64,000 nucleotides of DNA from Tetmemena sp. SeJ-2015 (Eukaryota; Ciliophora; Spirotrichea; Sporadotrichida; Oxytrichidae): positions 1-64,000 of the forward strand of contig JAJKFJ010021718.1 in the NCBI GenBank assembly GCA_027382625.1. Direction: 5' to 3'. Made by a program: the position numbers and the translations under genes. Below are positions 1,379-58,100 of the stretch, in pieces. The notes below the pieces were generated by a model, which saw nothing but the letters and a program-made list of their open reading frames with translations, was not told the origin of the DNA and did no database searches. Positions within the stretch are counted from its first letter, which is position 1, and every line of letters begins with the position of its first letter.

Positions 1379-1807
1379 TAAGTTAAGTGAATTAGCGGAT
1401 ATTTAATATATATTTTGATTTGTTATCTAGTATAATCATACCTCTACCGGCCCCTCTTAAAATGGGGACTCAATCCTCAAGAGCCGCTCTCCTCCAAGCC
1501 CCGTTCTTAGCCGTAGGCATATGCCGGGGGTCACTACCCCTCGCCACAAGAGGATCGGGGGTTGCCACTCACTGCACAGGGCAATGGGGAATTTTAAATT
1601 ATACTATGGGAGGGGGGGGATTCTCATACTTGAGACTCTTGCCCCCCTTAAAATCTCGGGTAAATAATCGGTTCTAAAAAGGTGTTGGACCTAGTTTTGC
1701 TGATTTTGCCTCTCTTTTCTGTTGCTGTTTTTATTTTTATTTAATTATTATTATTATTCCCACTTTTTCTAAACTCCATCTTTTTCGTCTTCCTCATCGT
1801 CATCATC

Positions 1808-1837
1808 ATCGTCTTCTGCAAGACATATTTAATAGTA
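1808..1837 (-). repeat. right terminal inverted repeat, 30 bp
   Basis: Core ATCGTCTTCTGCAAGACA; exact partner of 1,349-1,378. Confidence 0.85.
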
Positions 1838-3555
1838 GGAATCATATAATAATCAGGTTTCTCCCTATTTTTGTCATATACTTTCAATCCTCCTAATAAC
1901 TTATCATCTTTAGAACAAAAATGGACTCTGTCAAATGAAGTTAGTAAATAGCTAAGTCATAAATTAATTATTTAAATTTTATAATGGAATTAATGGCCTT
2001 ATAGTGCAGAAATAATAAGGCTGTTTAATTTGATTTAACACCGCCACCTTAAAATCTTCGAGAATAGTTACATAAATTCCTATGAAAAAACCTTGTATAC
2101 ATTCTTTGAGCTCTAAAAATAGATTTTTATAGGCACAATATCCAATTTAGTGTTGGATGACCTACTATATTTTAGACACTCCACAATTTTTAGGTGGCAA
2201 AATCAAGTAATGTTAAGTAATTTAAGCTAATGTCTTAAACTAAACTGCTCTTTCTTACATAAAAAATTTAGTATTCAACAGTATACCTTTTCATATCTCC
2301 TCACCCATATTCCATTTTCTATTTTAACCCTGAAGATTAGTAATTGACATGATATTCTTGGAGGAAAATCAGAACAGATTAAATTGCAGGTTTGTTGTTT
2401 TTACACAGCTTAGGGTTCACAAAAACCTTCAATTAAAATACACTAGATTACAAACTCCATGATTATTAAGTAAGAAAATCTTCAGTTAGGTTCCAGCTTA
2501 CTTTACACAATTTTTTTACCTTTAAATCTAGACGTCTAATTCCATGCCAAATTTGTTTCACCATGCTTTTAATTTAGTTTTTAAGTAAAATAATTTCCTC
2601 ATAAATTCTATGAAAGATCAAATAGTAAAATAAAGCATTAGAAGACCTCTAATTTCTTGAATAATTCAAGATAAAAAAAACCTTTAGACTATTGCCAAAG
2701 AGATGCTCAACTTTAAAACTGATAAGTAGATATACCTCATTTAAAGATTCTATAAACTTATATATTAATAAGTTAGCTCAGTTAAATCAAATTAAAGTTC
2801 GAGAATAATTTAAGGTTTTATACTCGAATACCAAAGTAAATGCAGTTAAATAAGTAAAAGAATTAAGGCTTTTGAAAATATAAGCCTTTAAAATTTTAAA
2901 GTAAATTTTTTTGACTATCTAAATCTTCATAAATATCTATACTTTTTTTAAAATAAAATTACTATTTTTTGAATTTAAATTATTTACTTTTTATAGGAGA
3001 GTTCTGCTTCAAATTATTAGCTGATAAATTCATAAAGCTAATCAAACTTTAATTTCTATTGAAAGTATTATTTATTACTAATTTCAAGTACTTTTTGATT
3101 CCTTTACTAAAAAAAATAGTAAATTTGAATGACTATTTTATAAGCTATATATCGAAAGATTAATAAGAAATTTTACCTTAAAATATATTGCATCTTTACC
3201 TTTTTTACTTAAACTATCTTAGTATGAATTTTATATAATTAAAATTTAAAGGGCGAATTATTTTAATCGAATTACATAAAAAATCTTGGTAGAATAAAAT
3301 TTAGCAATAATTTATATTATGATTAATCGCTCTGAGGTCTTTGATATTTATTAGAGGTTAGTATAGTCTTGCTAACTTTATTCAGATTTTCTGGGATAGA
3401 AAATATATTGTTTAAATTATTTCAAATTCTTTATATTTTACACCTCAATTTAGATTGATAGATATTAAATTAATTATCAAGATTCTTACCACTACACAAT
3501 CTAAATAAAATGTCATATCTATCTCAGGAAATCACATAGAGTGGAAAATTTAAAA
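1838..3555. other. AT-rich spacer without visible genes
   Basis: No extended reading frame with coding-like composition was seen on either strand. It ends at the first zinc-finger segment. Confidence 0.5.
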
Positions 3556-3589
3556 AACTCCAAGCGATTCCACTGCGATTTCTAGGAGT
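3556..3589 (+). CDS. scrambled zinc-finger gene, segment 4
   Basis: A 34-nt coding segment starting at pointer AACT (3,556-3,559) and ending at pointer GAGT (3,586-3,589). Read AAC TCC AAG CGA..., it gives NSKRFHCDFQE, the Cys-side half of a C2H2 finger. The TAG inside is Gln. The start pointer matches AACT at the end of the 17.7-kb segment (17,740-17,743), which would join RRHN to SKRF as a finger linker. The end pointer matches GAGT at 3,624. Joining at GAGT gives C-x4-C-x12-H-x4-H exactly. Pointers of 4 bp are weak alone, but frame and finger spacing both agree. Confidence 0.6.
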
Positions 3590-3623
3590 CTACCTTTAAT
3601 AATTACAGCAGATTTATATTTAT

Positions 3624-3713
3624 GAGTGCAAGAAATCTTTTGCGAGGAGAAATAGGCTTGAGCTACACAGACGTACTAAGCACAACAATGAATGTCTCCT
3701 GAAATGTCCAGTC
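3624..3713 (+). CDS. scrambled zinc-finger gene, segment 5
   Basis: Thirty codons in one frame, ECKKSFARRNRLELHRRTKH followed by NNECLLKCPV. This is the second half of one C2H2 finger and the start of the next. The last 14 bases, TGAAATGTCCAGTC (3,700-3,713), recur as the reverse complement at 8,177-8,190. There the finger continues on the minus strand as DGCLKVFAEK. Immediately after 3,713 the sequence becomes AT-rich and non-coding. The short insert between segments 4 and 5 (3,586-3,627) is a conventional IES. Confidence 0.75.
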
Positions 3714-3783
3714 ATCTCTTTAATACATTTTAGTTTGCTGAGAAGGGGAATTTAAAGGTTCACTTAAAATTTTGGCTTAAATG

Positions 3784-3911
3784 AGTAAGATTTAATTTAC
3801 TTAAGGACTCACACTGGCTAGAAACCTTTCAAATGCGAGTTTTGCGAGAGCACATTCGCTTCAATAGGAAATTGTCGTGATCATGAGCGAAGACACGTTC
3901 AAACTCGGTGA
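3784..3911 (+). CDS. scrambled zinc-finger gene, segment 7
   Basis: Reads QDLIYLRTHTGQKPFKCEFC and then ESTFASIGNCRDHERRHVQTR: a finger linker (THTGQKPF) and a complete C-x2-C-x12-H-x3-H finger. The TAG in TGQKP is Gln. It begins at pointer AGTAA (3,784-3,788), shared with the 3' end of the inverted segment at 8.1 kb (8,144-8,148 as TTACT). In the joined finger the first zinc-binding His would fall at LIY|L and is not seen, so one codon may be lost or the junction may differ by a few bases. An in-frame TGA follows at about 3,912; whether the gene ends there or continues elsewhere is unknown. Confidence 0.65.
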
Positions 3912-6742
3912 GTAACAAGTTTTATTAATTTATTCTTCAATTATTTCACTCAAGCCAGCACCTGATTATGAATGCCTAAAAGTATTAAAAATTAATTTTT
4001 ATTTTAAAAAGGTCTGCAATAAATATCTATGTCTTCTTTAATTTAATCTCAAATACTCTGTCACCAAGATTTTTGTAAATAAATTAATCCAATTTAAATT
4101 AAATAATTTCTTTGAATTTAAAGTAATCTGGATGATTGATAATTTATTATAACTTTTCTTAATAGCTGGTTTGTATTAAAAAGAAAAATTAAATTAACAT
4201 TAATATAAACCTATATCCTTAGTAATTAAAGTGTGAAATTTCCTCTGGTATAATATTTTTGCACTTAGAATATTACTTGGTTTTAGAGTTTCTAGCATCG
4301 AAATCTCCTATCCTAATGGAAGCAGAACAACTCATGCTAAATTTCAATAAATTATCGCGTTAGCTCCACATCGATCGAAGAAGCTCATAAAACACAAAAA
4401 TTTTCAACTCTTCATAGCTGCATTTCATTAAATATATTCTCATTCTCAATTTCTTATCTGCTTTTTTTAATATTATGAAATGTATCATCTATTCATTTAC
4501 TAAACGTTTTAATATGAAAACTGAAGATTTACTTCATTTATGAGGTCCACTTTAATTTTCAAATATGGAAATTTTCCTAGCTGATAAATTAATTTGATCT
4601 TTATAATATAGAAAGTAATATGAATTTTAATGGTATTTTAAAATTATTATTTATAAAAATATATTTAATAAATTTTTAAAACCAAGACAATTGAGTGGAT
4701 TAGATTTTAACTTTCCTTGAAGTTTATTCTTAGTGAGAGACTCTGAGAGTTTTCTGTATATAAACTCAAATCTCAAAACCATCCCTCACTTTTATCTTTA
4801 AAGGCATCTCAAATTTAATTTAACTCTAAATGGTTTTAATTTTTAAACTTTAAAGTTATTAAATCCGTAATTTTTAACAAAGAAAAAATAGTTGATTCAT
4901 AAAAATTTTAAAATTATATAAAATAGAATGAAATAATAAAATCTTTAATCTATATGAATCATCAATATTTTAAATGTTATGACCATATATTATGAAGAAA
5001 ATTTTTATACAATTTTAACATGAAATACCTTTATTTTAATGTAAATTTAAATTTCATAGCCCTATTCTAGATTAAATTAATTTAGATTTTATTATTTAAG
5101 CTTGGGGTTTAATTTATTCAGAAATTTTAATTTTAAGCATTTTTTAATCCAATAATTTTAATGTCAATATAATTGGAATTATTTTAATTGATTGTAGCTC
5201 ATACAATGCACAAATTTTTGATTAGAAAAGACTCAAACGTTTGCTTCCCAAATTATGTGGAAAATTGATAAATAGGCTTTTTCTTTCTCATCTAAGTAAC
5301 CATTATTTATTTTTGAGAAATTCTCAAAATATTTTTTATAGACTAAGAATGAATTAGTGAGTTTTACTATACTTCAGTTATCATTGTTTAATTCAGAGCG
5401 AATTAGAAGTTTTTCCTTCAAACATGGAAAGTATTATTTTAATTAAATAAAAGATTTTCCATTTATTCAAGAATGCCAGTGTTGTTGATAAGACAAATAG
5501 TTGGCATAAAATAGTTTGAAAAAAATGTTGAAAGTTTTATGTTAGGTGCCTAACTGCTGTAAGTATTAAAATAAAGGATTCGCGTCACATTTTATCGTCT
5601 GAAACTAGAATCTTATTTCAATGTCGATATCGGCAGTAGAAATTTTATTTCTTTCATTTAGATATTTTAGAGCATAAAATTTTTTAATATGAATTTCTAA
5701 ATGAAAATAAATACTACAAGAATATAATTTCTAATTTTATTCTGAATAAATGACTTTGAACTTCAGTGTTTTTTTTTTATATTTCTACTTGATAACTGCG
5801 ATGAAAATTTGAGATAAAATTACAATGCTATCTTAAATTAATCATTAAATTGCACTTATTATAAGAGCTTAAATCATTAGTTTAATAATTAAGTTAGTGA
5901 GAGTGTTTCAGTTTCACCATTAGATTACTCGCTTAAAATATTTTTAATTGCAAAATATTTTATTTATTTTTTCTATCACTAACTCAAGAAGTTTTATCTT
6001 AAACTTTCACAGTCCAAAACATGACTCATTTTAAATTATTTATTAAATCATTTTTATTGTACTAATTTTTATAAATTTATATTAACATCCTTAAATTATT
6101 TAATTATTTTGATTGAACCTTTTTTATATCCTTATTGGATTGATGAGAGAATGACTTATAAAACAAAATTTTAAATAATTTATTTTAATATAAAAATATC
6201 AAATTTAAATGTAAGATTTTATCGAGATAGTATATATTACGCATACTCAAGGTCTTTGGTTTTGCCTGTTTTTTAATTTATCATTAGTCATTAACAAATA
6301 AACAACAAATCTTTTGAATTAATTGGTATACTAAAAATAAGATTGGCAGAAGCCAATTTATTTGAATTTTTCCTATTTTTGTTATGGATCCGGATCAATC
6401 TCAGATTATAAAATACATTATGAAAGATATTGATGATGTGCTTTTAAATTTAAAAGATAACATCCCTATTCTTTATTATAAGTAAGAATAAATCTGTTCT
6501 CTATTCGATTTATTTATTAAAAAAAATAAAAATTAGTAAATTTTAAGACGAATGAAAAATTTAAAAACTAATTTTGATGCAAATGGCGCTTATTTAAAAA
6601 TTTATTTAATAATTGATGCTTAGATTAAATATCTTGAGCTGATAAAAGATGGAAGCCTAAAATGAACTCTGGGAATATTTTATAAATTTATTGAATTTTT
6701 AGTATTTTTTTAATATATAAAAATTAACTCTTCGTGGTAGTA
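3912..6742. other. AT-rich germline spacer
   Basis: Mostly A/T tracts. One slightly coding-like frame is listed separately at 4,316. No RNA genes or repeats were recognised. Confidence 0.4.
4316..4543 (+). CDS. possible short coding segment, unknown
   Basis: With TAA/TAG as Gln, an ATG-led frame runs 76 codons to TGA and begins MEAEQLMLNFNKLSRQLH. The first 30 codons have balanced composition; the rest is AT-rich and may be non-coding. It could be an MDS of an unidentified gene or chance. No family recognised. Confidence 0.2.
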
Positions 6743-7235
6743 TTAAATTAGAAAGTTAAAATTCAGGACGCACACAACTGGCACTAGGCACCAGTACCCT
6801 TTCCCTGAAGGCTTTCTAGTTTGGTGCTCCATTGGCTGGTGAGTGAGTACTAAAAAGAGGCAAGGGATAATGGCAGCTGAAGCCCTAAGGTGGTTGTAGC
6901 AGCTAAATGGAGTAAAATCGAAGGTGAATGGTCTCCCACTCATCCTCCTCATCCTGTAATCGTGGAGAGACGAGATCTATGGGCAAACACTCAGTCATGC
7001 AGCTGGACAGCGAAGCCGGACGCTAAGGAGCAGCGACTTGCTCTAAGACGGATGCTACCTGATTTTTTTTATCCTTCTAGGTTTTTTGGACGGTTCACAG
7101 AAGCCGGGGGGTTCTGCTAAGAGTGTGAGGTGGCGGGGGTGCCTCGTGATTAATATCCCTATTCGGCTGGTAAGCGACGACGTCAAGGCGTTGGCAGTGA
7201 CGTATTAGCTTATCTTATTAATGCCGGGGCCCTTT
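6743..7235. other. GC-richer island, possible degenerate mobile element or ncRNA
   Basis: About 490 bp markedly richer in G+C than both flanks, with abrupt edges. Frames on both strands contain short ORFs (6,743-6,952 minus, 6,890-7,120 plus) but none shows a recognisable motif, and they overlap each other. No terminal inverted repeats were found by eye. Origin unknown. Confidence 0.35.
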
Positions 7236-8143
7236 AATTCCCCTAATTATTTTCATAACTCTTCGTGTTGAAAGCCAAGCATTTAAGTTGCAAAAATCAA
7301 GCTACTTATTGATTATTTGAATAAAGATTATTTTTATATTTAACTATGAAGAAAGAAATTATACTGTAGACCTAAATACTTATTTTTTGTTAAAAGAGAC
7401 TTTGTTGAAAAGCTGTCCATAAAGCTTTATATTTTACCTTTTTATTTAGAATATTATTACTTCATTTTCTTCGCATTCTTAATTAAATTGAGAGATTTTG
7501 GCTGAAATGTTCAAGCATGATTCCGCAATTCACTTTACAATTTTAAATTATACTGTAATTATTTTTTAGATGATCAGTTTTTATTCTTCATTATTTAATT
7601 CTTCATAATTATAAATTATATATGATTTTCTAATTCAATTTATTTAATATTGTTCTGCTCGACCTTTATGATTATTCGCCTAATTTAAATATATTTAAAT
7701 ATCTAAATTTAATAGTTGATAAACTAAAGTGAAATCAAGAAACTTAGAGTTATGTTATTCATTATTCTTAAAATGTGATTTTATTATTTTAATTATAAAA
7801 TCATGATAATATTAAACTTTTATGCCTGATACTCCATTTAATTGTTGGAATTTTATTGAATGATCATTTCTGAAATTTTTGGGGAAAAATCATCATCATG
7901 GATGGATGATGATTCCATGAGATATTTTTTCATGTGAGTGGTTTGTCCTAAACTTTTTGAGTTTATCCTGTCGTTTACTAGGGTGCATTTTAAATTTGTC
8001 AGCATTTAAGACTAGTTAAGGAGGAAATATAAAATCAATTAATATTTCCAAAATACTTAACTTTATTTTTAAGATGCTTGACAAGTTGGTAATTCCTGTA
8101 GTACATCAGGTGGCATACAAATAATTTCCACACAAAAGATTTA
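7236..8143. other. AT-rich spacer
   Basis: Nothing supportable. A small perfect hairpin motif (CATCATCATGGATGGATGATGATT) lies at about 7,890. Confidence 0.4.
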
Positions 8144-8190
8144 TTACTTCTCAGCGAACACTTTTAAGCAGCCATCGACTGGACATTTCA
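8144..8190 (-). CDS. scrambled zinc-finger gene, segment 6 (inverted)
   Basis: On the minus strand this 47-bp stretch reads ...KCPVDGCLKVFAEKQ, the Cys-x4-Cys side of a C2H2 finger. Its 5' end (8,177-8,190) is the exact 14-bp pointer TGAAATGTCCAGTC also found at the end of segment 5 (3,700-3,713). Its 3' end carries AGTAA, shared with the start of segment 7 (3,784-3,788). Both joins keep the frame. It is flanked by AT-rich non-coding DNA on both sides. Its orientation is opposite to all other segments, so the gene must be rebuilt by inversion. Confidence 0.72.
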
Positions 8191-8682
8191 TCCAATATAA
8201 ATTTATAATTTTATCAATATTGTAGAAAAGAGATCTTATGCATATTACTTGAAAAATGCTTTATGATATCTACATCTTTTCATATTTTATAATAACAATT
8301 TTGCACAAAAAGATAAAAATAATCAATTATATATTGTGGTTTTATATTTGTTTTTGAAAAATTCTTTTGTTTATTATCTGATAAAATTTTGGATTTTTGC
8401 TTGAAACATCCTTATCTATTTGAAATTCAATTTCAAAAATTTGATAGTAATGTACGATTTAAAATTTAAAATAATGAATATTATTAACTTAAAAGGAGGA
8501 AATTTGAGGGGCTAAACTTTATATAAATTTAAGAAGCTCAATTAATAGTTTGAATAATATTTTACACTCTTCTTCCTGAAAATAATTTTATTGATTTTTT
8601 GGATGGGATAAAAAATGAATGGGATTATATCCTAACTCTGTCTAATAATCCAAATCTAACATCTCACATTATGTGCTTATAA

Positions 8683-9652
8683 TATTATGTTTTCAGCTTT
8701 GTTTTTTAAAATTTTAAACTGATGGAGTGACTTTTGACCTACGTTAACGGAGAGCAGGCTGAGTTTCCTGATGGAGCGTTCCTGATATAGTGGCCGTTTT
8801 TTTAAAAGTTCTATATTCTCGCCGAAATTTAATTGAAAAACCGAATTTTAATAAAATAATTAAAAAACATCTCTAAACTTTTAAATTTACCGGATTCGTT
8901 TATTGGTTTATTTTTAAATTAAGGCGTACCATCTCTACGACCGCACCTGAATTCCTAATCCCTAATCCCCCCCCGCTAAACTTGGGAAAATCAGGTCCAC
9001 CAGGTGCCACCGCGGTCCAACATGTACGATCTCGCCTCTGAGCCCCAACAGTATCAGGAAGCCGGAGTGGGGATCCATGGCCAGTGAGGAGTGCCCCCAG
9101 GGGGGAGGGTTCGAACCCTGCCGGTGACCTCTTGAACCGTCCCTCACTGCTCTTTGCCGCTCTACTCATCCTTACCAAGTCCTCACTGTAAACACCGCTC
9201 ACACAGCAACCGCGTCTCTTGGTCACCGGCGGTTCGAACCCTCACCCCTGGGGGCACTCCTCCCCGGGCCATGGATCAAGCTCCGCCCTGATACTGTTGG
9301 CGCTCAACAAGCTACTTACCTGGCGGTCCCCTGGTGGACCTGATCTCTAAGTTAGGGGTGGTGGATTAGGGATTAGGGGAATTCAGGTGCGGTCGTAGAA
9401 TGGGTACGCCTTAATTTAAACCAAATAAACCAATAAACGAATCCGGTAAATTTAAAAGTTTAGAGATGTTCTTAATTATTTTATTAAAATTCGGTTTTTC
9501 AATTAAATTTCGGCGAGAATATAGAACTTTTAAAAAACGGCCACTATATCAGGAACGCTCCATCAGGAAACTCAGCCTGCTCTCCGTTAACGTAGGTCAA
9601 AAGTCACTCCTTTCAGTTTAAAATTTTAAAAAACAAAGCTGAAAACATAATA
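8683..9652. mobile_element. 970-bp foldback element with GC-rich core
   Basis: The left arm (8,683-9,129) and right arm (9,222-9,652) are near-perfect reverse complements with small indels. The loop is about 92 nt (9,130-9,221). The outer arms are AT-rich and well matched; the inner arms are GC-rich and more diverged. Each arm contains GGTTCGAACC (9,108-9,117 and 9,232-9,241), which matches the RNA polymerase III B-box consensus. No transposase is encoded; minus-strand frames here look like translated repeat DNA. A foldback or MITE-type element with a tRNA/SINE-like core is the best reading. Confidence 0.7.
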
Positions 9653-11934
9653 CTCTTATATAATAATTTATCACTTCCAAAAATATAATTAAAGTAAAAG
9701 AAGAAAATTTAATCAAAGCTAAAAATTGTCCTTTAATATTTTCTAAAAACTTAAGTATAATAAATTAGATTTTTAGAGATACAAAATAATAAAAGCTGGA
9801 GGACATGATAAGAGATTAAGATTCGATTAATGGTGTCTTAGTTAGAAATTAAAATGAAAATTTTCATTTCTTAATATTTAGTTTGCTAATTGATGAATTC
9901 TGTCTTTAATTTTGGGATTTAAAGTGTAAAATCAGTCTAAAATAATATAGTTAAAGTTTAATTTAAAGTTTGCGATTGTTTAAATATGTGTGAGGATCTA
10001 AAGTTATTAAATTTAAACCCATATATATTGAATCATTAAGAAACTTAGACATCAAAATAAATTTAGAGAGAGGTTTTTTCCCCTAATATATTGTTTATTA
10101 CTAAATTATAAAATTTAAAATTGCTTTTTTGTTTAAAAAAGATCTGAATTAGATCGTCTTAAAACTCAAGGATTAAATCTCTTAAACTATTTATTCTCTA
10201 TTACTAATGAATAAATTAAATTTCAAGAGTTTCCATTGTCTATAACCTAGCAGATATAATATTTTAAAATATAATTTAATAATATTTTGTATTTTAAATT
10301 AACGATAATCTTTTGTATTCGAGAGTAGTCATTATAAAAATTTGAATTTTTTTAATATTTTTTGGTAAGATCATTTACATCATCTACATCAGATATAAAT
10401 TAAAATTTTGATGTTTAAAATAGTAGTAGTATCAGATGCCATAACTCTCTGGTGAGAGGCGCAATCAACTTAATTATTTTTTAATACATTATATCAATTC
10501 ATAAAATATGAATGATCTTTGTAACTTGAGTATCTATAGAAACGCTTCAGATTTTTAATTGAAGGCTCCACAGGAATATGAATTTTCAAGCTTGAAGTAG
10601 AATTCTATAGGTTTTAGTAACTTAAAATTAAGAAATTCAAATTATCTTGATTTTAGTGATGATTGGATTCTCTACAATATAGAAAGAAAATAGATTAATC
10701 ATCATGATTTTGCTATCTTTATTATTTCTAGTTTTTTAAAGAAGACCCTTCTTAATTTCAATTATTACAAAAATAACGTTTTGAAGATACTTTATAATAA
10801 TTTAATCATTATTAGACTTACATTTAAAAATAGATAGAATAATAATAATAACGGTATATGTGAAAATCGTTATGAGATCTGAATTGTATGGAGCAAGCAT
10901 TTCTAAATTCAAAATAGGAATATTAATCTTAGCTTGTGAAAGATTATTAAAAATATTTTATAATTCACCAAAGGGTTTATTGTCATCTAGCATCATCTAA
11001 TTTTAGGATTTAATAAGTAAAAAATACTATTAGAATGTAGATGAGAGATCATGTCCTTGAGTTTTTTGAATGTCCCCAGCTTGAAAATTGAAATGTAATC
11101 TAATGTTCCTACTGGCTAAATTACTATTGCTAAATATTAATTGATAAATTTAAGGTAAATTATTATGGATTATAATAAAATTTCAAATTTGGGATTTATA
11201 ACCCCATTTGCTTTAAAAAAAATTTTTTTATTGGAATTAGACTCAGAGATTTGCCGGCAATTACATTATATTGAGTGAGGAGGGATTCTAAGGTTCTTCT
11301 AATTTGATAGTCCAATTGAAATTGTTATTAACATAACATGTAATAAAATGAAGCGAGGATTATTTGAACCTCATGCCTGAACACTTCTAGTTTCCAGATC
11401 GTAGCTTTGCATTCTCTAAAAAATTAGTTATCACTCTCTTCAGAATGATTGCCTAAAGGAGTTGTGATTGCGTTTTTAATCGCTATAGGTGATAGAATCA
11501 GCAAAAATGTGGTAGGACCTAACATTTCTCAAGTAAAAAGTTGAATTAGAGCCCGATCACTAGCAATTTAAACATCATAATTTTGAATGTAAGCATTACA
11601 TCGTGAATACCTTCATGAGGAATTTTATCCGCCTCTCAGTCTAGTCAGTTGATCAAGTTTTTATTAGAGTAAAAGCTAAAGCAGGACTCAGTATATCAAA
11701 GTACATTTTTTAACCATATCTACTCCAAAAGTGCAGTAAGAAGGGTTAATATATAGTATTAGCAGTGACAAATTAGAGAGACACTTCTGCATAAGAGTTT
11801 TTTCTCATGTTTTTTATTATTTAATTTATACCTAAGCGGTTATTATATCCACATAAAACTAAAATTCCTAAGTTTTATTATCAAATTCTTTATAAACTAA
11901 AAGTTATTATGTAATATTCAGACTTTTATTTAGT
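9653..11934. other. AT-rich spacer
   Basis: No gene, RNA or repeat could be supported. Confidence 0.4.
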
Positions 11935-12095
11935 TGATTATTCAAAGCGTGCAGTTCTGATGCAGGATTTATAAATGATAAAATAAATGCAGTTGTTGTT
12001 TAAGATGATTTTTAGATCGTTGCTGCTTAAGTAGGCTACTTAGAGTTTGGCTAATTTGTTTGCAGAAGTTCTGATATCGATGTCTACTAACTCAG
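11935..12095 (-). CDS. possible MDS encoding Gln/Thr/Ser-rich segment
   Basis: With TAA/TAG as Gln the minus strand reads LSQQTSISELLQTNQPNSKQ followed by PTQAATIQKSSQTTT and stays open without TGA. The composition resembles the low-complexity tail of a transcription factor. It could therefore belong to the scrambled zinc-finger gene, but no pointer to that gene was found. AT content rises toward the lower coordinates, so the true edge is uncertain. Confidence 0.3.
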
Positions 12096-15000
12096 CTGGA
12101 AGGAATCACTCAATAAAATACGAAGAAAATTATCAAAGTTTTGTGTATTTTTATTCACTACCGTCTTTAAAGATATTCATCTTCGAGCTCAGAGGATAAT
12201 TCATTTCATATAAAAATATATATTTTTAGAGGTGAAGTGCGCACCATTTTAAGGATCCCTTCTTCAAGTGAGGTCTAGGGATCCCTTCTTTTAAAGATGC
12301 TTGAAAATTTCATTTAAATGTGGCAGACATTAAATTTAAATTTAAAAAATAAATAAGTTTTTTTTAAATTTTTAATTCATTGGTAAGGCCCAAAAAAATT
12401 TTTTTTATAAAAAAAGGTGTTAGAAAATCAAATTAAAAAGGATTATTTTGTCTTAGTGAGACATTCATCCAGAATTTAAAGGGGTTCTAATACTTTATTA
12501 TTAAAAAAGGAGCACAAATATTTTATTATATTTAAAGAACCCCTTTATTTAGGAAGACTAGGTATTCAGTATCTTTAGTTAGATGCCTTTATTAAATCAC
12601 AACCGAATATTTAAAAACATTCCAATATTAAATTATGATAAAATAAATTAGAGATGAGATACTTTCTTTTTTTAAAATAACAAAAATTGAGGGTGGAATT
12701 AATTTTAGAGTATATAAAGGTATCTTTAAATAATAATTAAATTAAGATTTTTGGAGTATGATTATTTTATAAAATTAAACTCGTGAGATAGATATGAGAG
12801 TCATTGTTTGTAGAATCTTTAGTTGGGCTTTGTAAGGGAGAGCAATCTTTGAGACTTTACAACCCTGTAGGTTTCTCTTTTAATTACATCACCAGTGCGT
12901 GTGGTAAGAACATAATTTATCAATCTTTGCATAATTTATTTAAAAATATATTTTTAAGTACAATTTGGTCAAGTATTTATTTTTAAGTTGGATTTATAAT
13001 TTATCGAAAATAAATTACCCCCTTTAATTTTCACATAAAAAGTAAAAGAAAGCAATAAAATAATTTGAATGGAAATAATGAGCTAAAATAAAAAACTAAA
13101 AAGACTTTTAAAATGTTTAAGCTATTATATTTTACCTAATGAATGTTTAAGCTCTGAATCTCTTATGCTATTTAAAATATTGATAAATAAGATTTGTGAG
13201 CAAATGAGAAATTGATTTGAGTAACTTATATTTGAAAAAGATATGCTTTTTCTCTCTCTCAATTAGATGTAAATGAAATAAAAGGTGTCTTAACTATCCT
13301 TTATATTTAGAGATTAAAGGACAGTTTAAAACTTAAAGAAGTAGGTGAGGCTTACTCATCCTGTTCTGATGATCTTTAGTCCGCTATTGAACTTTTGTCC
13401 AATCTAATTTAAGTTTTGCAAAAATTTTTAATTCTTATAAAAAATTAAATTGTGTAAAACTCAGATTTAAGCAGCCCCTTATAATTAAAAATCATTAAAA
13501 AATTGGTACTATAATTTAAGCGATTAAATTAATTAAAATTTCTAAACTGAATAGTGCCATATAAATATTTCTTTTGTTTTAGAAATGAAACAAAAAAGCT
13601 TTAGATTATATTTAAGAATCCCAATTTAAAAAAAACTGAAAAAATAAAAAGGAAAATGGAAAGGAAATTTTAAATTTTTTAAAGATATAAGGGTTTTTAA
13701 ATTAATTTGTTTAAGATTATTTAAGTTAACTGCCTTTTTTATTGACTCTTGGGGGAGGTTTTGATAAAGTTTTGAAAACTAGAAGGTGACACATTAAATT
13801 TGAGTTGTTAATTGATAAAATTGCTTGTTAAATTTTATTATCTTAATGCCTTCTCTCCATTTCTTCTCTAATTAATTCTTTTTAGCATAAACTCAACCCT
13901 TATCTTCGTTCCCTTTACTATCCCAAAACCTACTGAAAGCTAAAAGAACGAGAAGGGCTAATCCTGGTATCAATCTCACAATAAGATAACAAAGGAAACT
14001 CGAGCTATTATCAATTTAAATACTCAAATTTTTTTAAAAAAAAAAATTTCTTTAAAAATTAAAAAATTTAGAAAAAAAAAATTTTTAAAATTAAAAGGAA
14101 AAAATTTTTAATTTTTTAAAGTTTTTAAAAAAATTTTAAAATTTAGTAAAATTTTTAAAATTTTTCAATTAATTTAACGTCCAAATTTTTTAAAATTAAA
14201 TTTTTGGAAAATTTTTGGTTAAAATAACTTTTTTGTTTTGGTTTTTTTTTTCAATCCCCCTTTGGGGTTTAATAGTAGGCACATTTTTTAAACTTAAAAA
14301 AACCCAAAATTTTAAAATTTTTATTCCAAAAAATTTTTTTAAAAAACCTTAATTTTTTAAAAAAATTAAAAATTTTATTTTGTTGGGGTTAAAAATTTAA
14401 CCTTTAAAAATTTTAAATTTTTAAGACCAAAGGGAATTCCAAAAAATTGAAAGTTTTTTTTTTGAAATTTTTATTATGCTAATTGTTTGTATTTTCTCAT
14501 TTTGAAATATAATGTGAAGCTAACCAAAGATGGCGTTGTTTTTGTCTGGTTAGTTTCAAGGTCTGGTGTGTGCTTGCTAGTTGATACATGAGTAAATTAT
14601 CAATACGAAGATCTCTATGTCTCTCTTGCTTTTAAAAATATTTACTGATCTCTAAACAAGGGAAATCACACTCACAACAACAATCTCCAATATATTTATC
14701 GGCTTATTTTGTTAACTGCCAGCTATTTATAATATGGCAAGATTACCAATGTTTAGTAAAAAAATAAAAAATTAACATTAATTATTACACTACTTTAACA
14801 GCGGAAAATTAATCCTAAGAGATTTAATGAAAAGAAGTTGATAAGTATGATCACCTACTTATCCACAATTAATTTTAGAAAATTTTTTTCCAAAATGAGG
14901 GTTTGAAGTGATATTTCTTTTTCCGAAAATGGTGCATTTATTAATTCCACTTACCGAGTTCGAAGGGTAAAGGGTGCGAAATTAAATTTTTACCCTCCTT

Positions 15001-16945
15001 TTTAAAAGAAAAAAATTTTTATTTAAGGAAAGAAAAAATTTTTTACTAATTTATAATTTTTTAAAAAATAATTTTCCCAAATTTAAAAAGAAACTTTTTT
15101 TAAAAAAAAAATTGGGTTCCTTTACCGGATTTGCATTAAGATTTTCTTTTCCTTATTTTTAAAAATTTTAAGCAAAATTTTCAAATAATCAATTACCTGA
15201 TGTATTTCTACCCCAATAATATTTAATTTAAAGAAGTTAAGAAATGCATTTAAATTAATATAACTATTTAATAAGATAGTGATTTTATAGTTAAAAAATT
15301 TATTTATTAAGCTGCATGTGGAAAGAAATCATTTTACAATTTAATTTTTACTTAGCCAAACAATTTTTTTTTGGAAAGAAGATGAGCTTAATATAAGGTT
15401 AACGTAATTTTTATCAGACACTATCGAGACCTTATTGATTCAAACTAGCCTTATTCTCAAATCATGGTTTAAATAACTTAGCAAAAATCATCTATTTTTA
15501 GTCGCCCAAAATAAACTCAAGCATTTTTCTCTTCATTTTAAACAATAAAATATTTTCTTCTTTATTTTAATGAAGATGCTGTTGTCTTCCCCCAACCCCA
15601 TCACAAGTATTTAAAATAAAAGCTCCAGATCTAAATAAAAAAATAAATTAGATGCTTCAACTTTATAACTATTCAAAAATAATTAAAGAAACTTTCTCTC
15701 ATTAATTTTAATCTTTAAAGAATTTAAATTAACTAAAAAATTTAATTGCATTAATCCTAACCAATTAGAAACTTAACAACAATAATTGTGAGTCAGTCGC
15801 ATAAATTAAAATATTATTTTAAGTGATTTAATATATAAAAGAGAATAGAGATATTAAAACTTAATTCATTTTAGGATTAAATTTAATTTTAATTTTCTTT
15901 ACTTAATAGAACATAAAAATTATTTAATTTTAAATCTATTTTTTTATGCTCAATACTTTTTATTAATTTTTGAGAAAAAAGTTCTCCCAAAATTGTAAAT
16001 ATCCCTACCTGAACTAAATAAGTTAATTAAATATTTTTTTAATATACTTAAAAAATTCAATTTTTAAAATTAATTTTTTATTTTAAATTTTTTACTAATT
16101 TGTTTTCTATTTAAATTATTTTTCAAGTCTGAAGAGAGAGTTAAATGAGAGTTGAGGAAATTAAGTAGATACGCAAAAGAAGTAGCAGCAACTCTTGGAG
16201 CTAAATTTTATTCTTGTTATTTACTAACTGAATCTTAGACTTCGCCTTTCTCTTCAGTTTTTGAAAAATGCTAAAATATAATAAAAGTCTTTAGGAGTGA
16301 AGCATAATAATTAATACAGTCTTAAAATAGACAAAGCCTAATTAATATATTTAAATTTAAATAACTTATAGATTTATTTCTAAAAAAAAATGATTCTTTT
16401 ATTTAATTAAAACATAAATAGAAAGGAATAAGCACTTACAATAGATTTATTGGAGTTTACTCTTCCATTCATAATAGCAGGCGTAAATTTAATAATTTTA
16501 ATTAATAAAATTTAAATCCTACTGTCAAAAAATTAATTGGTCATTCATTACCATTCTTTAAAATATACTTCTATTAACTTGTCTATTTTAAATTTACTAT
16601 CCGTAATTTATGTTAATTGATAAATTAGGTGGTTGGGGTTGGCTATTAGAGAATCAATTCATTAATTTACGCTCTACTGATTCAAGACAAAACTTAAATA
16701 AGTCCATGAAAAACATATCAATAGAATAATTATAGATCATTAACATTCATACTGTTTTAATTAGTTTTGATCTGCCTATTTTTATATCCCCTTTTCGATT
16801 CGTAATTCCTTTAATTTATTTATAAAGGCGTACCTAGCGTCGATTGAGGGCTCATTAAGAGATCTAACTGCTTCCAATTCTATTAATCGAGAGCGATTTA
16901 ATAAAGCAACCACAGCTAAACTCACAGATAACTTATTTAATAATT
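12096..16945. other. AT-rich spacer with homopolymer-dense block
   Basis: Bases about 13,990-14,470 are an extreme A/T run region (repeated AAATTTTT-like blocks). Similar texture lies at 14,990-15,180. No coding sequence was recognised. The short ORF at 12,804-12,986 has no motif and AT-driven composition. Confidence 0.4.
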
Positions 16946-17264
16946 ATGTATCAACCTGCTCCTGCAAATATCTCGATTAGCTAGAAGGCCGCACCTGACA
17001 CTGATATTTTCCTTGGAAAATCCTCCTTGTCTCCCCACTACTAAAATTAGTTACAGTTATAATAATCTGAGGATCCTAGTATGGAAACTAGCAATAGAGC
17101 GAGATAGAAAGGCTCCTTGTCTCTTCTTTCAGAAGAAGAGGAAGAGGAGGATATGAGCTCTAAAGGTTGGGTCGCAACTTGACGCCAGGGAAGCTCCTTT
17201 CAGTCATAAAAAATTCAAGTGCGACATAAATAATTGCAAAAAGTCATTTGCCAGACAAAATCTA
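16946..17264 (+). CDS. scrambled zinc-finger gene, segment 1 (N terminus)
   Basis: The ATG at 16,946 opens MYQPAPANISISQKAAPDTD and continues through Gln-rich and acidic (LLSEEEEEEDMSS) sequence, all with TAG/TAA as Gln. After a one-base slip near 17,165 the frame continues REAPFSHKKFKCDINNCKKSFARQ, the first half of a C2H2 finger (C-x4-C). The start is chosen because upstream DNA is AT-rich and the frame begins cleanly at this ATG. A signal peptide is absent, fitting a nuclear DNA-binding protein. The exact right edge is not fixed: coding sense is lost after the codons for FARQ (about 17,264). Confidence 0.6.
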
Positions 17265-17589
17265 ATTCTTTTATTTTCTAAAATGGTTTTTTTAAACATA
17301 TTAAATGAAATGCATAATTATTTGCTTTTTTAAATTTTAAAGGAATTTTTTTCTTTTTTTTTTCTTTCATCATTAGAACAATAAGAGTTATTTTTGACAA
17401 AGTGGGATTTTTTCCTTTTTTTCTATGATTTGACTTTCTGATTTTTTAGAATAAATATAATGTTTAAATCGTTTGACTATTCACCAGCAAGATAAGCATT
17501 CAAAATAAATGCAATACTGCTGCACTTTTGAAGAATATAAAGATTTTATGAGTAATCAATTATCATTGTTTTATTTATAGATATGAGAG

Positions 17590-17644
17590 AAGGGAAATTT
17601 GCAAGTTCATTAAAGGATTCATTCTGGAAACAAGCCCTACAAAT
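17590..17644 (+). CDS. scrambled zinc-finger gene, segment 2
   Basis: Reads GNLQVHQRIHSGNKPYK, the His half of a C2H2 finger plus the HSGNKPY linker. Placed after segment 1 it gives C-x4-C-x12-H-x3-H (FARQ-GNLQVH...). The join between 1 and 2 has no clear pointer and may contain a base error. It ends at pointer AAAT (17,641-17,644), shared with 17,674-17,677. Confidence 0.55.
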
Positions 17645-17673
17645 TAAACTCATAAACATATTAATTCATATAT

Positions 17674-17743
17674 AAATGTCAATATTGTTCTAAAACTTTC
17701 TCGTCTAGTGGAAATTGCAATGACCATCAGAGACGCCATAACT
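17674..17743 (+). CDS. scrambled zinc-finger gene, segment 3
   Basis: From pointer AAAT the frame continues the previous finger linker as KCQYCSKTFSSSGNCNDH followed by QRRHN: a complete C-x2-C-x12-H-x3-H finger. It ends at AACT (17,740-17,743), the pointer leading to segment 4 at 3,556, 14 kb away on the same strand. The 33-bp insert between segments 2 and 3 is an ordinary IES. Confidence 0.65.
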
Positions 17744-20700
17744 AACAAATTTAAATTCCTTTTTAAAATAAAAAACAAAAGTAAGTCATCTTTAGAGCTT
17801 ATGCTTCTATTATAAAGTCAGAGAGCTGACTATAGGCGTCGCCTTCAGACTAATTTAATTTTTGAGGAAAATATATAAAGTCCTCTTCTACTTTATCAGA
17901 AAACCAACCCATCTCCCTCTCATATATTATCCCCAAAATTAATCAATATTTAATTGATTCTTTACATTAATTTAAAAATTATCCATTTTTTCTTTATGTT
18001 TTTAAATAAAGCTAATTTGCCATTTTAAGTTTTCATTAATTATTTAATTAGATTTATTAGTCATTTTAATTTCTATTATAGATTAATGTCATCCATTTTT
18101 GAATTAATCCTTCAGACAAAAAATATTACATCTGTCTCATTATTTTTTTTAAATTAAAATTTGAATCTATTTCAAGTTATGGTTTATGAATAATATTTAC
18201 TCCTTCTGATTTGTGAGCTTTGAATTTAAATAACCTTATAAAATTTAAATTGAAAATATGCTATAATTATTTATAAGGTTTGAATATTTAATTTTATGAA
18301 TGGACTGTCCTTAACTGGATATTATCCACTTTTATATTCTTTGTCTTCCTCTAAAACTGAGCTTAAAATAAAATTTTGTATGCATGCTTTGTGGAATTGT
18401 GTGAGAATATTGAAAGCGGTTGGTACTGGCAGTGAAGGAGTTAATGAGAGAAATTACTGTATATAAATGAAAACTTATAACTCGAGTCAGGGCTCCTAGC
18501 ATCTTCGATCATGAAACCCTCAAATCCTCAGACTAAATAACTATGCACTTCTAATAAAATAATAAAAAAATAATAAATCCCACTCGTTTAAACTTTAAAT
18601 TTAATAAACTTGTGTTTAATTAATGTTTTACATTTTTTATTTCAAAAAGGGGTTAGGTATATAATGTAATGATGATTAAATTAAAGCAAGATTATTAACG
18701 GTATTTTTAAAATACTTTAATTCTATATTAATATGACCAAAGATAAAGTTTAAATATTAATAGAGACTATGCTATATCTGACATAGAGTTTTCATAACAT
18801 TGAGGAGGGAAAATGATTATATAATGCATAAAGCTATGAACTAAAGTAGTAAATAATGTGAACTAAAATTTATGCAGATTATATTCCTTTCCTTTGTAAA
18901 ATTAAAGAAAATTATATTAAAATGCTACAAATAACAAACTAGAATTTAAAAATCAATGATTATACTTTTCAAGATTAATTTTTAACAAATTATATATTCT
19001 ATGCTACTTTTTTGATCACGAGATTTATATTTATATTCAATTAAAGTTTAATGTTTTGAAAAGAAAGAGATTAAAAATGTAAACTTGCTTCACAATTGAG
19101 AGATGTATATATGCTTGCCGATCTCAAATTAAGCTGCAGTAATTTTACGCCTTTCTCAAAGATTATACAAGCAAATACTTTATTTTTGTAAATGTAAAAT
19201 GTAATTTAAAATTGAGAGTACATAAATTAATTTATTTAATTGCGATTTACTCATTTAAAAAAGCTAAAATAATTCAAGTATAAGATAGATCTAAGCTCAT
19301 ACTATTCTCAAAAATTATTTCCTAGATCAAATATTAAAAAAATGAAACAAATCAAAAGTAAAAAAAATCAATTCTCAAAAAATTTATGATGAGTAAATGA
19401 TTTTAATAGGAAAATGAAATTTGTGACAAAGAAAAGTTAAAGTTATTCTAAATTAAGATGATAATTTAAAAGAAAATCGAACTAAATTGAAAGTTTAATT
19501 AAAGTTTATTAAATTAAAGACAGAAAGGAGTAAATCTCAGATTTAAATAATTATTTTATCATGCAAATAGAGCATAAGATTTTAATTTCATTAAAATTCT
19601 ATTTCTTATGTTAAGAGACATAAGTTTATTAAAGGATATTTTAAAAGATCAAAACCTTTAATTGTTCGAATAATTGAAATTACTCTAAAATAGCCTTAAA
19701 AAAATAAAAATAAGGTTTATCTAATAAACTGAAGATTCTTTAAAGTCATTGCTATATATAACGAATCTTTTATTTTTAATAAATTTAAAATTATTAAAAG
19801 ATCTCTTCATCTGTTAGGGCGAGAGGGTTTGTTGCAAAAGTTTTGAAATACTCCTGTAAATCAAATTGGGAGCTACCTCTTTTTTAGATTTTGGCCTTTA
19901 ACTCAGGAGTATAAAATGAAAATTAATTTTAAAAGGCAGTATGGTTTGACATACTAATACTTGATTTTTAAGCACTTTGGATTTATTTTGATGGGCTTGA
20001 GTATATTTTAGAGTTTCTTGATCTTGGATTGATTCGTGATGATTATATTAAGTAAAGAACTTTTATTTACTTAGGGGGCTTTAAAAAGGTTGGTTTGAGG
20101 AGTCAGTTACTTTGCTTTTTTATTTTAAGTTTCTGTCAGAATTTTTTTGATCTTCAGTTTAAATTTAATGAATAATTAAGTTTAGGTCATGCTCAGCTTC
20201 AATTAAATCCCTTGATGCTTTGAGTTTTCTTACTACTAAAGATTACAGTTGTTATCATTATAAGAAAATAAGTTAAATTCTTCCTTAGTTGAAAAATAAA
20301 TACTTTCAATTTTATGTCAAATTAAAATTTACTACTTTAATGTTTCACCACCTAGTATCTTCTGTAGTACTCTTGCTCGCAAATTGAAGCCAAATTTATT
20401 TTTTTCCCTTCTCCCCAAAGACTTTATTGCAGCCTTCAAAAGTGCAAAAATAGTAAAATTTTTTTTATTTTAATGAATGTTAATTTTAAATTTTTAATCA
20501 TTCTGATAAAAAAACTAGTGGGAGTGAATTGGAAAAGGTGATCGTTAATTTTCGATCGAATATCCTTTGAGGCTAGGGCTGCTAGGATAACCCATATCTC
20601 CTCTCCCTTTACAATTATTTAAAATAAAAACTATTTTTTAATGCCTTTTTGATACCTCTCCTCTTATATAAAACATTTCAACTTATCTTTCAAAATAAAA

Positions 20701-24760: not shown

Positions 24761-26525
24761 ATTAGACATCTAGTATCTCATTAAGATTTTTCTAAAATTT
24801 CTTATATTTATTTGAAGCAAATTTTATAAAAGATTTTTCTTAAAATTGAATTTGGCAGCACCCAAGAATAATTTGCCATACAATTTTTATAATCAGTAAA
24901 GAAACTCCCTTGCTAATATTTTTTCATTAGACAAGCTTTGTAATTTTTATGCGTTGGAAGTAAAGAGTGTAGTGAAAATAATGTAAAAGGGCCCTAGTCT
25001 ACCTTTACGTATTATTATTTCAAAGAATTTCACTTTAATCCACATTTATTGATATATCCTTACATAGGATAATAGTACGATTTACTAACTAGTACTGTAA
25101 TAAGTGCTGGTTTTTAAATTGATTATTAATTCCATTCCAAAAATTTTACTTTACATTACTTTACTTAACTTTATTGATATATCAGTTTTTCATTATATAC
25201 TGTGAAGCTTCATGGAACTTTGAAATAAATTGGTTTTCTTGTATTTTGGAATCGAAGTCAATTTATTTTTAGCAATAAGTAATTTAAGATGAATGATTTG
25301 ATTGAATTTGAGAACTTGATGGTGAGCGCCCAAACTTGGATATTTTGGGCTTAACCCTCCTTTACCGAAGCTTGGTCTACCGCAATAATTTTTGAATAGG
25401 AGTTTCCTTCATAAATTTTCATTGGATTTTAAAAGTTTATAAGTTTATTTTTATTTTGTTATTATAAATTACTCCTAGTGCATAAATGAAGAGCTTGAAA
25501 ATATTAGGTCTGTGGAGAAAAGTAAATTAAACATCATCTTGGCCTTGAAGCCTGGAATGCATCTGCCTTGAATTCAAAAATATGGAATCTTTGAAGCTGA
25601 ATGAAACTCCATAATTATTATGAGCCATTTAAAGTGGCACTTAAACTTCTTCATTGATTTATTAAAGTAGAAATGGTTTAGTTAGGTAGATACATAGTAA
25701 ATAGGTAGCGTGGTATGGAATAAGAGGAGGAGGAGGACTGGTGGGAAAGCTCGGTTACCTCAAAGGAATTTAAAGTTTCTTCCAGCACACAATACACAGA
25801 TTTTCTCTCTAAAAATTTTGCCCAAAATATTTAACTACCACTTATATCTTTATTTATATTAAATTGATTGTTTATGCTGATTAATGGGCTCTTTCTCTAG
25901 AATAAAACAGAGTTTTGCAATTTTCACTCTTCTTTGTAGGCAAGAAGTGCATAATTAAGAAAATTAGAGTCGCATTTCATTGATTAAAAGCAATGAAAAT
26001 CTAAAATAAAAAAAGAGAAAACTTTTGTAAAATATTAAATCTTTGAAGACGTTGGTTTGCATATCTTATCAGTTTTTAATATAGGAAAGGATTGAAAGAA
26101 AAATAACCGGCGTGCTTTTAAATAACATTAATTCAAATGAGATTTGAATATATTGAAAGCAGTCAATTTAAATCCATAAAAGTAGGCAAAAGGAAAGCCA
26201 TCTTTTAATCAACTCAATATCACAAACTAAAATATTCTCATTTAAATAAAAGACTTCAGGGAGTATAGGCAACTTTTAAAACTAGCAAAGACAAAGTATG
26301 AAATTGAAGAACTTCAGATTAAAAATAATTTTCCCTTTTCATCCTCCCATTTAACTATATAAATTTTCTATAAGGATTTCATTATATTAAACTCAAATTT
26401 TTAAACAAAAAATTATCACGACCTTTTACATTTAATGACGTATTTGCCAAGGCTTGCTTATTTTTCGCTTTCTGGAATGCTTTATTCCCATTGAGAGAGT
26501 TCAACTTTTAAAAAAAATTACTAAT
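24761..26525. other. AT-rich spacer with one coding-like stretch
   Basis: Mostly non-coding. At about 25,481-25,571 (plus) a frame reads NEELENIRSVEKSKLNIILA followed by LKPGMHLP and TGA. This could be a 3' MDS of an unseen gene. A purine-rich GGAGGAGGAGGA run lies at about 25,722. Confidence 0.3.
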
Positions 26526-55100: not shown

Positions 55101-58100
55101 GTATCATTCTTAATTAATAATTATTCATTTCATAAATCGGTGGCTCTCAAATGGAGTCCCAGTCGACCAGGTAGTCCAAGAAGCGCAAGTTCGAAGAATT
55201 TGATCCTACTCAGTCCTCCTCTCTAGCCTTCCCCGATCATAATCACCACATTCCGGACATGAACCTGATACCCGTGCTGGAGAGCCGGCTGCCTCAGATT
55301 AAAACTAAAGTCATACGCAAATCTAGCTCAGTGAAGCTGAGGGTACGTCAATCCATCACTTATGAGCAGCAGCTCTCCGCCATCTATCTCCACTTTGGAA
55401 CACTCCATTCAGATGCGAATCCGCGCCTCACCTACCCGCAGGTCGCAAGTATACTTTGGCTTGCGCGTTGGGGCAGTCAATATGATAGTCTAGCGCTGGC
55501 GCAAGAATGGCTTTATCGTTATTGTGAACAGGTTCAGGCGAGGCAAGGGGCGGTTACTATCTCCAGACACCGAACATCGCATAACCTCACTCAAGGCACT
55601 GCACGAGACGGCTCATCTGAGCTTGGTACAGCGCTGCCACTACCTCCACCACCGTTATGACATTCCTCTCATCTCAACATTTGGTCTACGTAAAATCTAT
55701 CTCCGCAATGGAGTTCGCTCCAGATCGTCTGGGTATTCGTATCGCCGCAAGGAGGATAAGGAGCAGGAGGCACAACGCAACCAACAAGAATTCTCGAAGC
55801 GCCTCGCACGCTGGATTCTTGAGGGGCGGCATGTGGTGTGCCTTGACGAATCGACATTCAACGCTTGGCAGTCGCCGAAGCGCAGCTGGCTCAAGGAGCG
55901 GATGAAGGTCCAGATACCCAGCACCAGGGGCAAGTCACTTACAGTAATCGGAGCAATCAGCGAGGCAGGGGGCTCCTCCACAGTAAGATTCTTGCGTCCA
56001 GCAACAACCTCCTCCACTTCATCGATTTCTTTCATGAGCTCGCTCCTCGACAGAGGCCTGGCTCCATCCTTCAAATGGACAATCTCTCTATCAATAGGAG
56101 CTCCAAGGTCTGAGACGCCATTCCAGCGAGTTGGCAGCTAGAATACTTCCCTCCTTACAGCTGTGCCCTCCGATCGAGCGCCTCTGGGCAATACTCAAGC
56201 AAGAATGGCGCCGTCTCACTGTTACTCAGCTAGTGCAGGCCAACCAAGCTTCCCCACCCGAGCACATACTTTAAGATGCAATTTAAAGAATTAACACTTT
56301 ATAAATTAAAGCTATCTCACGCTCGCACTTTCGCACTCTCCTCTCGTCATTGAGAGGCCACTCAGTCTGAGTTCACTGTTGCTGTCTACTCTTGATTGGA
56401 GTCTTCTGCTTACTTTCCTGGCCATTGAGAGGCTGTGGATCTTGCATCTACTTCTCCGCTGTCCTGGCCTTGGCTAGAGCCCTCTCTTCCATGACCACCA
56501 TCTCTCGCTCGATCTACTTCTCGATTCTGTGTCTCGCTTCCTTGAGCTACATCTATCTCTGAGTGGCCTTGCCCTTGATTAGCAAACTTCAGCCGAAGTG
56601 TCTTGCCAGATTTTGTCGAATAAGGCAGGCCTTCTAAGAAGGAAGGAGCTATCTCCACAGTACGATATGCATTAACCTAGGCCTACCTGCGAGGAGCAAC
56701 GTAGTCCTTAGAGAATATATCTTCCTTGGGAGAAAATGTGGACAGTATGGCGAGAATCCATCATCAGATTCTTTTCCATTCTCTCTGCCATGGCTTGATG
56801 TTTCTTCACCAGCACTTCCAATGTCGGAGGGGAGGGACACGGAAGCAATCTAATTTCTCTAAATCTTGGGCACCAGGCAGTTCCGTTGATTACACTCAGA
56901 ATGTATTCTTCAGTGACGATTTTCGACTTGAATGAGGGCAAATAATACTGGTTCCGAAGTGCAGCTTCGTATAGATCTGACTTGGACTTTATGACCTTCG
57001 CCAAATGGTCGACTGAGGACTTTGACTCCACTATTAATAAAGAGAATATATATATAAATAATAAGGGAAGATAAACCCGCATATGTAAGTCCATCTTCAA
57101 TTTCATTTATTCCATTTCCGCAATTGACAATGATCATACTCTATTAGTAAGACTTGAAGATGCTTAAAATTTAGCCTATAAATAAAGCGTAATATATTTA
57201 GCCAAAAGCTAATCATTGATGAGTATCCGGTAAATTACCATTTGCCTTCCATCATTCAGTACCTTAAATCGATCTAAGCTGTTCTTGAAAAATTTGAATC
57301 CTACTTCTACGGGATCGTAGATAACAGGCACCGGAACTATGGTCTTCTAAACTTGTTTGAATTGATTTAGAGCCATCATTAGAGATAGTTCTTAGGGTAG
57401 AGAATTTAATGATTTGCAGAGTTAAAGATTGACACTATATCCAAATAAGAATCTTTTCAAAGTTAAAAGTTCCAAGCTGGGATTCTCCTATTTATCTAAA
57501 TTGTTCTTCCTTTTAAATTTTCTATCTTGATTTTAAGGAGATCCTCCTTCCTTCGAAATAGGTGAGGTTGGCACATAGAATTCACTTTCTGGTTCGAGTA
57601 AGACTTTTAGTTGATGCTTATTGCACTCAAAAATTGCAAGATTTACCAAAACCCTTTTCACAGAATGAGGAAATCTTAAGATTACATTAGTCATCAAACT
57701 TAAAAACAAAGCCTCACCCCAGAGGAAAGATTCATCTACTATGGGCTCTTTGAGAGCTACAGGTTAAAGTTAATTCACCAGCTCTGAGAGTTTGTCCTTC
57801 ATGTATTACAATCCATTTTAGTAATGCTGCTCAGTTCTTATCTTGTCCCTTAAAAGACTAATCCTTAAGTTAAGTTCGGCTTCTTATTTTGATAGTGAGA
57901 TCTTTTGAATAGATTACTCCTAATTTGACCTGACTTTCTCTGTTAGCCTACTATTATAGTCCTCAAAAGCCATTTACGATAATTCGCATTCTGCTTGAAA
58001 CAGTATTAGCTATTCAGATCCCTTTTAAGAGCAAAGCTGCAAAAGCTCTTAAAGGAAAAATCCAAACAGTTTTGCAAACTTCGGTGTCTGCTTTAAGTAC

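Follow-up and report, generated by a model that had tools for sequence, protein, structure and literature searches.

Two related C2H2 zinc-finger genes of Tetmemena appear to be scrambled alike over both strands of a probable germline contig

Two related C2H2 zinc-finger genes, here called A and B, very probably lie scrambled alike over both strands of the first 64,000 nucleotides of a contig from Tetmemena sp. SeJ-2015 (C2793:1–64,000, ‘the window’, from an assembly of 146 Mb in 5,213 contigs); this grading, reached from sequence, applies to our best explanation as a whole. Genes in the window are read with TAA and TAG as glutamine and TGA as stop, the code used by many ciliates, and this code, together with the scrambled genes, makes it likely that the DNA is ciliate germline (micronuclear) DNA. 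No C4A4 telomere repeat was found within the window, allowing up to two mismatches. The predicted product is a nucleic-acid-binding C2H2 protein.

Gene A spans 3.5–8.2 kb. Its + strand segments are S1, S2, S4 and S5; S3, S6 and S7 are − strand segments, some 4.4 kb off. S1 (3,529–3,589, +; 5′ limit provisional) comprises the linker between fingers 2 and 3 and the start of finger 3, is conserved in seven A loci, lies in the open joined frame and ends in the word GAGT (3,586–3,589), with which S2 (3,624–3,713, +; finger 3) begins (3,624–3,627). This GAGT join, proposed in an earlier reading of the same DNA (the original prediction), keeps the frame. S2 ends in the 14-bp word TGAAATGTCCAGTC (3,700–3,713), which recurs inverted at 8,190–8,177 (−), where the finger switches strand, a link that was correctly drawn at the outset. 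There it begins S3 (8,147–8,190, −; first half of finger 4), and S3 in turn shares GCTGAGAAG (8,155–8,147) with S4 (3,737–3,767, +; second half of finger 4; GCTGAGAAG at 3,737–3,745). ACTTAA, at 3,762–3,767 in S4, is repeated at 3,799, bounding a predicted excised stretch of 37 bp (3,762–3,798, +) that includes one copy of the repeat. S5 (3,799–3,976, +) follows with the end of finger 4 and finger 5. Joined through GCTGAGAAG and the ACTTAA excision, finger 4 reads CPVDGCLKVFAEKGNLKVHLRTH, a canonical C-x4-C-x12-H-x3-H finger. Aligned flanks of the ACTTAA site are separated by 26–27 bp in the window and by about 690–730 bp at four other A loci (C1331, C381, C549 and C3290), a variation in spacing that fits the expectation for eliminated DNA. 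An N-terminus at the ATG at 3,319 was considered and rejected: in the window its frame leads into S1, but indels in other copies alter the frame at this place.

The words shared between segments are not of one kind. Strand switches within finger 4 are marked by words of 14 and 9 bp in gene A, and of 13 and 11 bp in gene B (described below), and simple excisions by words of 4–6 bp; the switch from S5 to S6, at 5 bp, is the exception. Of the exact inverted matches between the two gene A clusters, TGAAATGTCCAGTC is the longest, and 14 bp was reached in 1/500 shuffled pairs. With one mismatch allowed it has only two sites in the window (0/100 shuffles gave two), and across the whole assembly it has four, namely the window pair and the equivalent pair on contig C4928. 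The 9-, 13- and 11-bp words each have one site per strand within positions 1–21,000. All joins other than those at the long words rely on words of 4–6 bp, a length at which chance matches are common.

The order of the 3′ part of gene A was taken from a protein of another organism, P0003 (259 aa, eukprot:403336326; presumably from Oxytricha), which begins at finger 4, has a full sixth finger and is 52% identical to A over 99 residues. P0003 carries YYRNYQLVKH immediately after the finger GNCKDHERRH, and the counterpart of this in gene A is S6 (8,067–8,116, −, read from 8,116 to 8,067; YYRNYQLVKHLK), whose 25-nt coding part shows at most three changes across the four other A copies compared. S5 carries a candidate pointer ATGCC at 3,972–3,976, matched at 8,116–8,112 in S6. 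A donor, GTGAGT or GTAAGT, stands after finger 5 in 7/7 A sequences (GTGAGT at 3,908 in the window), and TACTACAG in S6, ending at 8,096, carries the frame on when taken as acceptor. Our preferred prediction is therefore an intron that would run from 3,908 over the S5/S6 junction to 8,096; it would remove the residues YY, which P0003 encodes. A join TTAAAA (8,072–8,067 in S6; 7,993–7,988 in S7) leads on to S7 (7,896–7,993, −), the likely C-terminal tail, assigned on length and frame without codon bias. The 3′ end of gene A, which the original prediction left unplaced, thus likely lies at the TGA at 7,898–7,896 (−), and with the predicted intron removed the joined gene is open for 140 residues to that stop. 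Assembly of gene A would then proceed as S1 –GAGT– S2 –TGAAATGTCCAGTC– S3 (inverted) –GCTGAGAAG– S4 –ACTTAA– S5 –ATGCC– S6 (inverted) –TTAAAA– S7 (inverted).

Three other arrangements of this region were set aside. Placing S6 ahead of finger 3 is ruled out by P0003, which has it behind finger 5. Joining S5 straight to the tail via AATGC is in frame, but makes no use of the − strand block that is conserved best. A short intron at 3,908–3,954 meets a TGA just beyond the S5/S6 junction, and its aligned acceptor is absent in C3290 and C3329. Beside the gene A intron donor, contig C381 carries an insert (L023, C381:15,163–15,280) that is 85% identical to window 25,055–25,172 and looks like a short mobile repeat.

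Gene B lies at 17.2–20.4 kb. S1 (17,202–17,262, +; 5′ limit provisional) holds the start of finger 3 and ends in AAATC (17,258–17,262), which also opens S2 (17,466–17,533, +; rest of finger 3; AAATC at 17,466–17,470). The missing start of finger 4 was located at 20,446 (−) when the first 22 kb were scanned in all six frames: S3 (20,403–20,446, −; CTFEGCNKVFGEKG) encodes the first half of that finger, is also present on contigs C4654 and C4697, and is bounded by TGCACTTTTGAAG (20,446–20,434; 17,521–17,533 in S2) and GAGAAGGGAAA (20,413–20,403; 17,587–17,597 in S4). S4 (17,587–17,644, +; second half of finger 4) ends in AAAT (17,641–17,644), with which S5 (17,674–17,752, +; finger 5) begins (17,674–17,677). 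The AAAT join had been foreseen and does keep the frame; it belongs to gene B, not to gene A. S5 ends in a candidate pointer AATTT (17,748–17,752), and S6 (20,335–20,385, −; CEQEYYRRYQVVKH; downstream limit provisional) is the homologue of gene A S6. The S5–S6 joins of A and B are both weakly indicated. The five joins of gene B give a single open frame of 108 residues. Its two-cluster inversion is present in 3/3 copies (window, C4654 and C4697); in the latter two the arrangement is kept and the inverted part is 96–97% identical, so that they serve as a check on the assembly, not on evolution. An intron from the GTAAGT near 17,780 was dropped, a 2-bp deletion lying upstream of that GTAAGT in C4697. 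Gene B, used as query in a further search of proteins, returned two matches at no more than 46% identity.

For gene A, the + strand cluster was found at seven loci and, within the sequence read at each, the − strand cluster also at six of them (the C1331 contig ends too early). At all six with both, one being a near-identical copy of the window locus, the clusters lie on opposite strands, 3.5 to 12 kb apart. The near-identical copy, on C4928, is 98.9% identical to window 1,716–8,686 over an alignment of 6,981 positions and is probably the other allele. Pointers between S2 and S3 vary among loci, with an exact match inside the locus in 4/6: in these four the two sides agree at 14/14 bp, with a word that begins TGAAATG in the window and C4928, and TGATATG in C381 and C3290. 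The S3–S4 word slides among A loci, being GCTGAGAAG, GCTGAG or TTTGCTGA. C549 and C3329 have − strand clusters nearly identical to each other and + strand clusters that follow different copies, a mosaic look that may reflect gene conversion, recombination or chimeric assembly.

Selection was assessed on the joined frames of five A copies, omitting C4928 (near-identical) and C1331 (without S3), and with C3290 entered from its ATG onward, its TGA lying before that ATG. Over ten pairs the ratio of non-synonymous to synonymous rates (dN/dS) was 0.11–0.56, and at most 0.38 in 9/10. In S1, S2 and S6, and to a slight degree in S5, changes favour third codon positions; S3 and S7 show no such lean. Zinc ligands are retained in all S3 versions read.

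Two further stretches were noted around these loci. Window 10,300–12,940 has blocks in common with C381 and C3290, and partly with C549 and C1331, at 65–82% identity, possibly pieces of another gene duplicated together with gene A; some short open stretches there end in TGA (around 11,050). Between the gene A clusters, the stretch at about 6,765–7,240 is GC-richer by eye, has no block among the matches to five more distant loci, and is possibly an insertion.

Several observations weigh against the proposal that A and B are scrambled genes assembled as drawn here. For the gene B clusters a 13-bp match was reached in 16/500 shuffles, and one AT-rich match of 13 bp in gene B corresponds to no join. 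The S5–S6 pointers are short: ATGCC in A, with only GCC common in C381, and AATTT in B, where C4654 reads AATAT. The S2–S3 words are one base apart between sides in C549 (12 bp shared) and C3329 (11 bp shared). The window–C3329 pair has a dN/dS of 0.56, changes at codon positions 1/2/3 are flat in S3 (2/4/3 or 2/4/2) and S7 (8/8/9 and 9/8/9), and S1 of C3290 contains a TGA. The joined query had 13 matches in this assembly, none of them a joined copy. Finally, PF13894 scores 29.3 for the shorter join of the original prediction and 27.6 for the join proposed here.

Some of these points, namely the TGA in C3290, the flat codon positions of S3 and S7 and the lack of a joined molecule among those matches, together with the many near copies, would also suit pieces that are never joined: relics of inverted duplications, or zinc-finger pseudogenes in decay. 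That explanation is nonetheless unlikely, given frames open across seven pieces in A and six in B, dN/dS values that mostly lie near 0.2, the retention of zinc ligands wherever S3 was read, and matching words at the strand switches of both genes.

The original prediction had instead described one seven-segment gene over 14 kb, beginning with pieces at 17.2–17.7 kb and continuing at 3.6–3.9 kb with one inverted segment. The words on which it relied, AACT (17,740 to 3,556) and AGTAA (8,144 to 3,784), are indeed present, and both joins are in frame. AACT, however, has 122 sites on the + strand within 1–21,000; it is kept in C3329 and C4928, but C1331, C381, C549 and C3290 have AATT, and coding-like conservation reaches upstream of the 3,556 site to about 3,529. 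The AGTAA link costs finger 4 its first zinc-ligand histidine, and the word is missing from the corresponding place in C381, C549, C3290 and C3329; the 9-bp GCTGAGAAG replaces it. The 3.6-kb and 17-kb parts code for the same fingers 3–5, so that they are two genes rather than successive parts of one, and an inverted partner of the 17-kb pieces lies at 20.4 kb. A single gene is thus very improbable: its segments 1–3 belong to the paralogous gene B, and its list, which captured the gene A pieces in part, missed the predicted excision at 3,762–3,798 and the − strand pieces at 8,116–8,067 and 7,993–7,896. There is strong support for its core, a scrambled C2H2 gene with an inverted segment, in the words at strand switches, the open joined frames and the recurrence in 6/6 A loci. 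Against Pfam zf-C2H2 (PF00096, cut-off 25.2), A as joined here scores 35.6 bits, B 54.1 and the earlier join 24.4. That the inversion is an artefact of assembly, to which the mosaic look of C549 and C3329 might point, is scarcely credible with clusters inverted on six contigs for A, at differing spacings, and on three for B.

Elsewhere in the window, an open frame of 485 residues at 55,341–56,795 (+) possibly encodes a Tc1/mariner-type transposase (DDE_3 20.3 bits, HTH_32 22 bits, both under their cut-offs); it lies where the DNA is richer in GC (0.41 at 54–58 kb).

Scrambled ciliate genes are already known as a kind, and A and B are a further example rather than a new phenomenon. The stichotrich DNA polymerase alpha gene is scrambled, with inverted pieces. 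Like it, gene A has coding pieces on both strands and would combine introns and excised DNA in one gene (introns in the polymerase gene: PMC1805493); unlike it, gene A is much smaller, with an intron predicted across a DNA junction. According to PMC9797194, pairs of pointers in spirotrichs mark successive pieces, one copy remaining in the somatic gene, and pointers of scrambled genes are generally longer, with which the long words at the strand switches of A and B agree. We infer that the pieces of A and B, lying in + and − clusters a few kilobases apart, would be joined in the macronucleus, recombination at the words common to successive pieces unscrambling them in the course of development. 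As in the scrambled genes of Oxytricha, Tetmemena and Euplotes woodruffi (PMC9797194), there are disordered and inverted pieces, pointer pairs, longer pointers at strand switches, odd–even alternation between two clusters, and many paralogs; the joins of A and B differ in being predictions from germline sequence alone. The duplication-and-decay model set out there (PMC9797194) holds that an excised stretch resembles the piece whose place it takes, at least in young cases, and would explain two inverted clusters each keeping complementary pieces in the right order. Unlike the model, the excised stretches of A and B showed no residual similarity to pieces of the other cluster in six comparisons, none exceeding shuffles at 5% (best 17/200). 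Lengths of excised stretch and piece agree in A (23 and 21 nt) and disagree in B (53 and 20 nt).

Genes A and B are 54% identical over 104 residues, both encode fingers 3–5, and S1 to S6 have the same order and orientation in both, so that gene B would be assembled as A is, via other pointers. Their simple excisions differ in site: the one in finger 3 falls before the second cysteine in A and some eight residues later in B, and the other falls in the histidine region of finger 4 in A and at the first cysteine of finger 5 in B. The proposed finger order is found in contiguous proteins of other organisms, P0003 and the metagenomic P0001 (122 aa, 68% identical to A over 93 residues). A relative in the same assembly (C2552:236,119–236,418), 49–53% identical to A (49% over 102 residues), has fingers 2–5 contiguous in the germline, its open frame beginning with finger 2. 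Beyond the window, a C2H2 stretch at C2793:94,692–94,874 (L057) is 44% identical to gene A residues 38–100. Weighing against a shared origin of the map, a mostly unresolved tree of 11 rows groups B with L057 and not with A. The age of the map therefore rests on parsimony, from which we infer that it is older than the A/B duplication; given such poor resolution, gain of scrambling in the A/B ancestor and its loss in C2552 cannot be told apart from the tree. A broader reading, tentative and falling somewhat short of probable, is that the map of two inverted clusters is ancient and frozen, that it predates the duplication and was inherited by every descendant locus, as its pointers changed completely, both copies co-changing within a locus and sliding, and that the RNA intron of gene A spans a DNA junction, so that splicing would be correct only after unscrambling.

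Watching a scramble persist or change is difficult, and the A copies are an unusually good set for doing so. One genome holds a scrambled locus in several near copies, together with a distant neighbour whose map is the same and whose pointers are unrelated, and a relative that is not scrambled, a set of loci that allows direct tests of the co-evolution of pointer copies, of the range over which pointers slide and of the loss of a scrambled map.

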